64,000 bases of DNA from Desulfosporosinus nitroreducens (GTDB lineage: Bacteria > Bacillota > Desulfitobacteriia > Desulfitobacteriales > Desulfitobacteriaceae), in NCBI RefSeq assembly GCF_023897015.1, contig NZ_JAMHFY010000003.1:62001-126000 (forward strand), given 5' to 3'. Shown one piece after another: positions 43,771 through 54,807 of the stretch; position 1 is the first letter of the stretch; every line of letters starts with the position of its first letter. The translations under genes were made by a program, and so were the position numbers. Below the pieces are notes generated by a model. The model was not told the origin of the DNA. It did not search any database and saw only the letters and a list, made by a program, of their open reading frames with translations.

Positions 43771-44007
43771 ATGAATCAAGAAGTGATTATGTATACTGTA
43801 CCCCTTTGACCTTATTGTTTTCGCGCTAAGCGATTCCTTTCGGGTAAAGGGATTTTGTTTACAGAGAAAAATATTGTATTTCCTAAGCATTTAAAAGAAA
43901 TGAGAAAGATGACCGATGCGATCGGAGTTCCCGTGACTATTGTGGGAAAACGGATTCTGACTCGTTTCTCGTCCTCTGAATATGAGGAGGTCTTTAGAAA
44001 TTACTAA
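43771..44007 (+). CDS. Selenocysteine glutaredoxin-like protein (UPYC)
   Basis: A 78-residue gene interrupted by an in-frame TGA at 43807-43809 (residue 13). With Sec it reads MNQEVIMYTVPL-U-PYCFRAKRFL, placing U exactly at the first Cys of the CPYC active site of glutaredoxins; the cis-Pro region GVPVTIVG and C-terminal SSSEYEEVF also match the NrdH/Grx family. A GAGGAGTG ribosome-binding site precedes ATG 43771. A hairpin beyond the TGA fits a SECIS. A thiol-disulfide redox protein in the cytoplasm. The frame would be broken without selenocysteine, and conservation after the TGA argues against a pseudogene. Overlaps mobA. Confidence 0.85.
43807..43840 (+). promoter_or_regulatory. Candidate SECIS of the Sec-glutaredoxin gene
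   Basis: Fifteen bases after TGA begins stem TCGC (43821-43824) / GCGA (43830-43833) with loop GCTAA. The loop begins with G, as bacterial SECIS elements require, and lies 16-20 bases after TGA. The stem is short. Confidence 0.6.
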
Positions 44008-52778: not shown

Positions 52779-52829
52779 CCATGTTATGTAAAAACCCGCT
52801 GCATTTGAGCGGGTTTTTACATAACATGG
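52779..52829. terminator. Long bidirectional terminator between groEL and the Sec-glutaredoxin gene
   Basis: A perfect 22-bp stem, CCATGTTATGTAAAAACCCGCT / AGCGGGTTTTTACATAACATGG (quoted in part), around a 7-base loop, with A and T tracts on each side. It directly abuts the stop codon of the minus-strand gene. Confidence 0.9.
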
Positions 52830-53177
52830 TTAAATTCTCTCCGGCGTAGTATTAAAGCAATACGAACATTTCGGACAAGTTACTTGGAGTGCTCCTTTAT
52901 TAATAGGAACCCGCATCTTGGCTTGGCATTTCTCGCATTCTATGACCCGATGATCGACTAACTGTAGAATCCGCGCCTGATCAAAGCCGACAACCAATTG
53001 ATCACCAATCAGAAAAGAAGGAACTCCGCTGACGTTTCTACGGATTAACTCTGAGCGGGCTTGTTCATCACGGTTGATATCCTTTTCTACAAAATGAATC
53101 TTATGCTGCGAAAGAAACTTCTTCGCTGTAAAACAATGCGGTCAGGTTTGTGTGGTGAATATGATGACGTTCTTCAT
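52830..53177 (-). CDS. Selenocysteine glutaredoxin with zinc-ribbon tail (UPHC)
   Basis: A 115-residue gene with in-frame TGA at 53144-53142 (residue 12): MKNVIIFTTQT-U-PHCFTAKKFL places U at the first Cys of a glutaredoxin CPHC/CPYC active site. The Grx/NrdH core continues (VEKDINRDEQAR, VSGVPSFLIGD with cis-Pro, VVGFDQARILQLV). A C-terminal zinc ribbon follows, CEKCQAKMRVP and CPKCSYC. AAGGAGT precedes the ATG. It has a SECIS-like hairpin and ends at a strong terminator. The frame after TGA is fully protein-like, so recoding is far more likely than a nonsense mutation. Role: cytoplasmic thiol/selenol redox. Confidence 0.85.
53108..53144 (-). promoter_or_regulatory. Candidate SECIS of the zinc-ribbon Sec-glutaredoxin gene
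   Basis: On the minus strand, 15 bases after the TGA, GCGAAGAAGTTTCTTTCGC (53126-53108) folds as GCGAA-GA / TC-(U)-UUCGC with an apical AGUU loop and a bulged U, as in known bacterial SECIS elements. Confidence 0.6.
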
Positions 53178-53259: not shown

Positions 53260-53428
53260 CTAAAACCCGAAGGCCGTGTAGATCCATAGTGCTGTAGTGC
53301 ATGCAGTAAACCGTTGGCTCATCTTAGACTTTGGTAGCGTGAACGCGTCTGCTTTTCCTTTTGGATGATAATGCATAAAGAGAGAATTTCTCTCCACATT
53401 CCTGACAAAGCAGATCAAAACTTGGCAT
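53260..53428 (-). pseudogene. Degraded FmdB-like zinc-ribbon gene
   Basis: From ATG 53428 (minus) the frame reads MPSFDLLCQECGEKFSLYAL, the N-terminus of an FmdB/rhodanese-type zinc ribbon, but hits TAA after 34 codons. A frameshifted continuation, KSKMSQRFTACTTALW, resembles the usual C-terminal half. One indel seems to have broken the gene. It sits upstream of the Sec-glutaredoxin gene, behind a CsoR-like operator. The assignment rests on short segments. Confidence 0.5.
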
Positions 53429-53454: not shown

Positions 53455-53473
53455 TATACCCCTTATGGGTATA
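53455..53473. promoter_or_regulatory. CsoR/CstR-like operator
   Basis: TATACCCC-TT-ATGGGTATA is a near-palindrome of the GC-flanked ATACCC...GGGTAT form bound by CsoR-family repressors (copper or persulfide sensing). It lies 27 bases upstream of the FmdB-like remnant and could control that remnant and the downstream Sec-glutaredoxin gene. Confidence 0.55.
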
Positions 53474-53642
53474 TTAAAATTATAAATTGAGTTATCTTGT
53501 TTGTCAATCGGCAGTTGGCGCTAACTTGCATCATCAATCCTAATGAGACGATTGATACTTCCAATTAAAAAGTACCTATTTAAGGAGAGGTACTATTTTT
53601 ATAGGAGAACAAATCATGACTACGTCAGTGAAGATAAGATTA

Positions 53643-54471
53643 TTATGATGATGTGTTGCTATATAGTTCTTGATATGTAATTTTAGCAGCCTTAATCCGT
53701 CGGTCAGCTTTACCACATTGAGGACTCAACAAAGAACAATTTTTGTGACAGGCTGTACAATGCATATCTCCAAGATAGTCTGAAAGACTCATGGTGTCTC
53801 CAACATCAGTAGTAGTTTCTGCATAGACCTGAATATTTGTACTATTTTCTCTTCCTGTTAAAGTTGGGGTCGTTTGAGATGAACTAGCTATCTGTGTAGC
53901 ATATTGGGTAGACTGGCTGTTCACATTGGTTCGTCGCGATGGAAATAACTCTGGAATATAAAACAATGACAATCGCGGCAATTGTCCCAAGACGGACGAA
54001 TGTTTCTCTGGCATTGCTCTTTCTAAGATTCGCGAATATTCTACGCACTGATTCCATAAGATAGTGCCCGTGCAAGACAATGTGAAGTCCGAAGAGTCCT
54101 AAACCGAGATAGGTCGTCCATGTATGGACCAACACCAATAGTTTACTGCCCAGTGAGGATCCCAGTGATGGAAAAACTACTTGTGAAACGAGTATACCAG
54201 TAATGGTTATTGTAGCTATGGTCAGGAACATCGTCACATTTAAAGCATATCTCAGCTTGGCCGATGTCTTTAATTTTCCATTGAATAGGTTCTTTGTGAC
54301 GTTTTTAACCCATGACCAGTTCAATCGAACATGGCTTGCAAAGAGGGCGAAGATGGATAACCCTACAATTTCATGGAACACAAGTCCAGTTTCATGTGCA
54401 AAAATCAAGGTAACAAACAGGATCGCCATGACAATATCTAACATTATTTTGGTAAGTGTTTTGTCGTTCAT
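53643..54471 (-). pseudogene. DUF4405 membrane protein, frameshifted
   Basis: Starts at ATG 54471 (MNDKTLTKIMLDIVMAIL) with several membrane helices containing His residues (FAHETGLVFHEIVGL, HVRLNW, VLVHTWTTYLGLGLFGLHIVLHGHYL) that could bind b-type heme. The frame runs into ...TNQCEQ then stop at 53884. The neighbouring frame continues without a break from about 53940 (VNSQSTQYATQIASSS) to 53643 and carries the expected C-terminal Cys segment MHCTACHKNCSLLSPQCGKA, including CxxCH. A one-base indel near 53900-53960 fits. It may be a real inactivation or a sequence error. Confidence 0.7.
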
Positions 54472-54807
54472 ATGTTCTAGCGCCTTCTTTCCGCAAATCA
54501 TTAGTTATTTTGAAATGGTTATCATAATGCACGTATATCTTTACTAATGTTTTCTCCTTCAATCCTCAGTTTCTTTATGTGGTTTTGTACGACAACATCA
54601 TTATGCAATACAAGTCTGAAGTGAAGCTGATGTCCCGCTGAAAGTTTGCTTAATGACAGAACAAGCATGGAATGTATTGTAATTCTTTCCTCTCTGGAAT
54701 AGTATTTGGGAAATGTGATTATTAGTTTTTTCACGGGCGTTTCGATGGAATAGGTCAAGCTAAGTACACATATAAGTAGGGTAAGAACTCCGCCAGGGGG
54801 GCATGAA

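Follow-up and report, generated by a model that had tools for sequence, protein, structure and literature searches.

The Sec-glutaredoxin gene and its surroundings

The window (the whole stretch of 64,000 nucleotides of Desulfosporosinus nitroreducens DNA that was analysed, from a genome of 5.46 Mb) carries on its minus strand a gene whose product, translated from 53177 to 52830 with TGA as selenocysteine (Sec), is MKNVIIFTTQT-U-PHC...VIECEKCQAKMRVPINKGALQVTCPKCSYCFNTTPERI, a protein of 115 residues. A single TGA interrupts the frame, at codon 12 (53144-53142), and the frame closes at TAA; a good GGAG ribosome-binding site lies 5′ of the start codon at 53190-53187. An earlier note on this DNA had proposed such a minus-strand gene with an in-frame TGA, and the frame, the translation and the conserved orthologues agree with it. 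The nearest named relative in the comparison is Desulfosporosinus lacus, with 97% identity for the Sec-glutaredoxin. The features of the locus are as follows.

52830..53177, minus strand: gene for a predicted Sec-glutaredoxin with a C-terminal CxxC...CxxC tail, 115 aa, UPHC active site, TAA stop included (from the translation with TGA as U, the orthologues and PF00462)
53142..53144, minus strand: in-frame UGA, predicted selenocysteine U12; of the distinct ribbon-bearing sequences, 30 (this one among them) have TGA here and four have TGT or TGC
53108..53126, minus strand: putative bacterial SECIS stem-loop, GCGAAGAAGUUUCUUUCGC, with its apical loop about 22 nt 3′ of the UGA (from covariation)
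52866..52937, minus strand: putative zinc ribbon, C81-x2-C84-x16-C101-x2-C104, all four cysteines invariant in alignment A1
52779..52829, minus strand: probable terminator, a perfect 22-bp inverted repeat directly 3′ of the Sec-glutaredoxin stop (from the sequence)
53324..53428, minus strand: decayed fmdB-like frame between the operator and the Sec-glutaredoxin gene (from tblastn with the intact FmdB of genome G003)
53455..53473, minus strand: predicted CsoR-type operator, TATACCCATAAGGGGTATA, directly 3′ of the -10 hexamer and in the same place before the orthologues in G401, G409, G405 and G423
53479..53507, minus strand: promoter TTGACA-17-TATAAT, 12 of 12 positions, kept in four other Desulfosporosinus species

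The inverted repeat separates the stop codon from a convergent groEL gene. On the other side, the leader around CGCATATGGGAAAGGAGT is conserved 5′ of the start codon in several species (L126, L127 and L128) and may contain a short leader frame or an RNA element. Elsewhere in the window, a DUF4405 cytochrome-b-like gene (53643-54501, minus strand) is apparently split into two overlapping frames, the D. lacus counterpart being one frame of 285 aa.

The gene had been counted as the second Sec-glutaredoxin of this DNA. The assignment as a Sec-glutaredoxin stands and the number is corrected, as it is one among three Sec-glutaredoxin-like genes in the genome. Another lies in the window at 43771-43983 on the plus strand (MNQEVIMYTVPL-U-PYC...) and is very divergent and without a ribbon; the third (L002, G000:C33:215982-216215) also lacks the ribbon and is placed within the ribbon clade.

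Evidence that UGA is read as selenocysteine

Several lines of evidence bear on the decoding of codon 12. First, orthologues as distant as those of Pelotomaculum and other Bacillota families, as well as that of D. lacus, keep both the TGA and the frame, and the dN/dS ratio 3′ of the TGA is 0.06-0.27 in ten pairs, ribbon included, which indicates purifying selection; chance is far from sufficient to account for this. Second, the UGA position is occupied by cysteine in four homologues (L010, L129, L130 and L133), as expected of a bacterial selenoprotein. Third, the hairpin at 53126-53108, which starts 15 nt past the UGA codon, shows covariation: four of its seven pairs have changed on both sides and 0 of 500 shuffles reach the score (among 20 distinct Sec sequences, whose kinship can inflate such counts). 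The sequence of the hairpin region has decayed in the three of the four Cys forms for which it was inspected (L010, L129 and L133), and in L010 the hairpin does not fold. Fourth, the genome encodes the selenocysteine machinery that a host would require, with two selA genes, two selB genes and at least two strong tRNA-Sec genes.

The stability of the hairpin in single-sequence folds is about that of shuffled sequence (z near 0), and RNAalifold on 20 sequences gave no consensus hairpin; single-sequence folding energy was set aside as uninformative evidence for a SECIS element. That a single genome holds more than one copy each of selA, selB and tRNA-Sec (contigs C95, C66 and C55 of the host genome) is an observation in its own right, and reflects either a true duplication or, in part, contamination, which is estimated at 4.6%.

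A thermodynamically ordinary hairpin would be compatible with the TGA being a true stop or a decayed codon, such that only a fragment is made, for example from the open frame that begins at 52997. This reading is extremely improbable, however, as about 30 relatives carry TGA at the same codon, the entire frame is under purifying selection and other relatives carry cysteine at that codon. A nonsense mutation or sequencing error is excluded by the conserved TGA with purifying selection after it, so that the refuting outcome named in the earlier note, a nonsense TGA in related strains, was not borne out. Collectively, the conservation of the codon across Bacillota families, the selection 3′ of it, the covarying hairpin and the presence of selA, selB and tRNA-Sec argue that the UGA is not nonsense; judged by its sequence, the gene is a real selenoprotein gene.

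The glutaredoxin core

Residues 4-62 match the Pfam glutaredoxin family PF00462 with 51.9 bits against a gathering cut-off of 22.9, and the AlphaFold model (mean pLDDT 86.6, pTM 0.63) shows four short strands after a glutaredoxin fold. Among solved structures, cGrx1 of Clostridium oremlandii is the best match both by sequence (profile E 3.7e-23) and in a fold search with the model (Z 15.2, rmsd 0.9 over 75 residues, 45% identity). All matches to the whole model in fold searches were glutaredoxin-like or thioredoxin-like; they cover approximately residues 1-76 and barely test the tail. The protein has both the UPxC motif and the cGrx1-like core of the cGrx1 type and, since the core is 45% identical to cGrx1, its catalytic kind is already known. 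It is probably a cytosolic thiol oxidoreductase of this type.

The core had also been described as NrdH-like, a label that lacks support in that form: NrdH redoxin (TIGR02194, 40.4 bits against a cut-off of 85.75) is one among several weak family matches, and cGrx1 and YruB are nearer. The best NCBIfam match over the core is the YruB family (TIGR02196), with 62.7 bits under a cut-off of 88.55. The scores for glutathione-dependent glutaredoxin 3 (TIGR02181, 51.1 bits against 90) and Uxx-star (NF041212, 42.2 bits against 66, and lower still for families 1-3) are likewise under their cut-offs. Membership in the Grx3, NrdH, YruB and Uxx-star families was ruled out on these scores.

Classical glutaredoxins bind glutathione through a signature of TVP and GG. 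The Sec-glutaredoxin has GVP and VVGFD where this signature is expected, and a search of the genome for one common family of glutamate-cysteine ligase, PF04262, found none. With neither the signature nor PF04262 found, the electrons more likely come from thioredoxin reductase or thioredoxin. For the cGrx1-type enzyme, glutathione has been named as the reductant (PMC7642778).

The four-cysteine tail and its distribution

C81, C84, C101 and C104 are found not only throughout the alignment but in every listed family member (members having been chosen partly on the CxxC pattern). The tail thus has two CxxC pairs with all cysteines conserved, the pattern of a zinc ribbon. Searched alone, it has its best Pfam match to the zinc ribbon PF13717, with 21.9 bits under a cut-off of 30.3. 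Of the C-terminal zinc ribbon that had been claimed, the two-CxxC tail therefore stands, and the binding of zinc is predicted from the four invariant cysteines, no family cut-off being passed. E. coli thioredoxin 2 (TrxC), a reductase of the thioredoxin fold, carries an additional zinc ribbon built from two CxxC pairs; unlike the ribbon-tailed Sec-glutaredoxin, it has its ribbon at the N-terminus, a thioredoxin rather than a glutaredoxin core, and no Sec.

A scan of all species with one genome per species, which reaches close relatives only, found six ribbon-bearing relatives, of which five share the TGA codon and one, in a metagenome-assembled genome (MAG) of Desulfosporosinus, has TGT in its place. 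Genome searches at the level of phylum (398), class (82) and genus (29) found the two-part, ribbon-tailed architecture in 34 genes, all from Bacillota. The search for Sec and Cys homologues with the same ribbon that the earlier note had proposed thus yielded 30 Sec forms, this gene included, and 4 Cys forms; the fusion that had seemed unusual is confirmed as a fusion but is not a one-off. In the open papers and family libraries searched there was no description of a ribbon-fused Sec-glutaredoxin, and neither the form with the tail nor its regulatory link seems to have been described within that literature. Outside Desulfosporosinus, no conserved gene neighbours were evident by eye in the five loci L006-L010.

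In a tree built on the glutaredoxin domain alone (76 columns, with many forks open), every ribbon form falls in one group with support of 100/99. One short, ribbon-less Sec-glutaredoxin of Desulfosporosinus is nested inside this group, a placement that points to secondary ribbon loss. As some relatives, including a paralogue in the same genome, lack the ribbon, it is not essential to catalysis. The four Cys forms make up one derived clade within the ribbon group (support 100/99), indicating that Sec was replaced by Cys once within the sample. One of them, from UBA4726 (L010:1778-2056), has in its vicinity a further CsoR-family gene, CstR-like in its C-Y-C residues and of the same type as that on contig C14 of the host genome. 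In an Anaerolineae MAG (L011:3001-3400), the frame of a UPYC glutaredoxin runs on into a stretch that, on inspection by eye, resembles a PDZ domain.

Promoter, operator and putative regulon

The promoter and operator lie together 5′ of the orthologue in five Desulfosporosinus species (D. nitroreducens and those of G401, G409, G405 and G423), without an intervening gene in three of the five. In the window, the intervening sequence holds the FmdB remnant: from 53428, it is 52% identical over 29 aa to the intact FmdB of G003 (tblastn, E 5e-8) before the frame shifts. In G003 and G155, an intact FmdB follows the same promoter-operator design in the place where the window carries the remnant. Both the remnant and a CsoR-like operator adjoining the gene had been proposed before; the first is borne out by the tblastn match, and the palindrome at 53473-53455 appears to be a genuine operator from its position at the promoter and from the comparative regulon.

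The pattern TACCCN5GGGTA occurs at six sites in the host genome, two of them inside coding sequences. The other four precede a csoR-type gene with trxA behind it, trxB, a ferredoxin gene and the Sec-glutaredoxin gene. A control pattern occurs five times and counts alone are uninformative, so that the operator signal rests on adjacency to promoters. In the eight Desulfosporosinus genomes sampled, a promoter matching at 11 or more of 12 positions stands directly upstream of 19 of the 46 sites; approximately 0.001 per site would be expected from the window's own promoter frequency, an estimate that is too low as promoters are denser between genes. The genes that follow such promoter-operators are csoR-trxA, ferredoxin, intact FmdB, a membrane-anchored rhodanese, the Sec-glutaredoxin and one small ORF in G398; in the host genome, csoR-trxA and the ferredoxin gene show this arrangement besides the Sec-glutaredoxin gene. 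The operator of trxB lies 39 bp before the ATG after a weaker promoter match, and at least seven of the eight genomes have it. The TrxB protein passes TIGR01292 (389 bits) as a true thioredoxin reductase.

The csoR-type gene upstream of trxA looks autoregulated. An operator at the promoter that is common to such a gene, as in a CsoR-family regulon, is thus present at the Sec-glutaredoxin gene, with binding of the repressor being predicted. In G003 and G155, the membrane-anchored rhodanese and the intact FmdB each lie behind a promoter-operator (L086, L089, L087 and L095), so the putative regulon is wider there.

No operator was found before ribbon relatives outside the UPHC clade or in other genera, which makes the regulon link local to part of Desulfosporosinus. 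This would fit a selenoprotein that has the general task of reducing disulfide enzymes, MsrA for example, and is constitutive in most hosts, with the operator as a local addition in Desulfosporosinus. The host encodes an MsrA-MsrB fusion, and cGrx1, the closest relative and a native selenoprotein of Clostridium (Alkaliphilus) oremlandii, has been proposed as the reductant of that organism's selenoprotein MsrA (PMC7642778). Such a role is nevertheless quite unlikely to be the main one here, given that the operator and promoter are kept together in five Desulfosporosinus species and that the host MsrA is a Cys form rather than the Sec MsrA paired with cGrx1.

Candidate repressor and inducer

The candidate repressor, a CsoR-family protein encoded at C11:349062, keeps a Cys-His-Cys set. 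These are the residues of the copper (Cu(I)) sensor CsoR; in CstR, the copper-binding His is absent (C-x-C) and persulfide is sensed. Copper is thus possible as the inducer, and the best NCBIfam match of the repressor is the copper-sensing RicR (78.6 bits, under a cut-off of 175). The same selenoprotein could accordingly belong to a copper regulon, in which the repressor senses Cu(I) and the Sec-glutaredoxin buffers copper or repairs copper-damaged thiols, and a metal-binding tail would suit such a protein. This alternative is nonetheless unlikely. In the host genome, neither the CopA-linked csoR genes (contigs C88 and C21) nor their CopA genes have a TACCCN5GGGTA operator, and no copper exporter is found among the operator targets, which comprise trxA, trxB, ferredoxin, FmdB and rhodanese.

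CsoR-family repressors that respond to sulfane sulfur provide a precedent, as ScCsoR of Streptomyces coelicolor binds ATACCn6GGTAT, regulates a rhodanese and is sulfane sulfur-responsive (PMC7533328). Given this precedent, the CopA-linked csoR genes without an operator and the lack of an exporter among the targets, a reactive-sulfur or general thiol signal is favoured as the predicted inducer, with copper as the main rival. The rhodanese target in relatives likewise favours a sulfur role for the putative regulon. Of the persulfide or metal stress that had been suggested at the outset, the link to thiol or sulfur stress is supported by the comparative regulon, and persulfide and metal are not separable from sequence.

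Proposed role of the Sec-glutaredoxin

The best reading, to which we assign a probability of about 0.6, is that the Sec-glutaredoxin is a CsoR-family-repressed thiol (disulfide or persulfide) reductase that acts alongside thioredoxin and thioredoxin reductase. The UGA at codon 12 would be decoded as Sec by SelA, SelB and tRNA-Sec with the aid of the hairpin just downstream. The selenolate of U12 would attack the disulfide of a target protein, or the persulfide of an oxidised cysteine, and C15 would resolve the mixed selenosulfide; the enzyme would then most likely be re-reduced by the TrxA/TrxB couple at the expense of NADPH. The tail may form a small zinc ribbon and thereby help to stabilise the protein or to select its targets, as has been suggested for the N-terminal ribbon of E. 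coli thioredoxin 2. At the operator beside the -10 box, a CsoR-family repressor would block transcription, and the Sec-glutaredoxin would rise with csoR-trxA, trxB and ferredoxin under reactive-sulfur or other thiol stress. The repressor site common to the thioredoxin genes suggests that the protein may repair sulfur- or oxidation-damaged proteins.

A more specific version can be offered tentatively, as a possibility that we hold to be weaker than an even chance: a protein depersulfidase or disulfide reductase that depends on both Sec and the zinc ribbon. In anaerobes such as Desulfosporosinus, a CsoR-family switch that responds to reactive sulfur would induce it along with TrxA/TrxB and ferredoxin, and in relatives also with rhodanese and FmdB. 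If true, selenium use would be an integral part of how a sulfate reducer responds to reactive sulfur. Sulfate reducers live in sulfide, and this link between selenium and sulfur stress is directly testable. Most of what is known about selenoprotein glutaredoxins comes from a single clostridial pair, cGrx1 and MsrA; the present family would add a second architecture, one that is widespread and has a four-cysteine tail built in. The occurrence of Sec and Cys forms provides a natural comparison within one genus. Furthermore, the operator common to trxA and trxB gives a protein of unknown role a testable reactive-sulfur hypothesis.

Comparison with known systems

Compared to other small selenoproteins and redoxins, the Desulfosporosinus protein shows several likenesses and differences. 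First, it resembles cGrx1 (PDB 7c10, 7c12 and 7c13) in having a UPxC/CPxC active site, with Sec at the first position, and the same glutaredoxin fold. The cGrx1 construct of 84 aa lacks the four-cysteine tail, and the CsoR-type operator with its link to a trx regulon is described here for Desulfosporosinus only. Second, the Uxx-star proteins (NF041212, NF041114, NF041211 and NF047338), listed as glutaredoxin-like (seleno)proteins in a 2026 review (PMC13188914), are also small selenoproteins of the glutaredoxin fold with U at the first active-site position; their models span approximately 70 residues and, like the 74-residue model of the YruB family (TIGR02196), have no ribbon. Third, TrxP and TrxQ of Staphylococcus aureus are thioredoxin-like proteins that reduce protein persulfides (PMC6196236), and the activity proposed for the Sec-glutaredoxin would be similar.

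The regulation has its own counterparts. CstR regulates rhodaneses and a CoA-persulfide reductase (PMC9405070), and the sulfane-sulfur regulons of CstR and CsoR-like repressors in S. aureus, Enterococcus faecalis and S. coelicolor likewise combine a CsoR-family repressor with rhodanese targets. The portions of PMC9405070, PMC7533328 and PMC6196236 used here make no mention of a selenoprotein glutaredoxin in connection with these regulons or with TrxP/TrxQ. Set against the CstR-type regulons, the Desulfosporosinus system has a candidate repressor with the C-H-C set. Its operator parallels that of S. coelicolor (PMC7533328), reading ATACCn7GGTAT in Desulfosporosinus and ATACCn6GGTAT in S. coelicolor.
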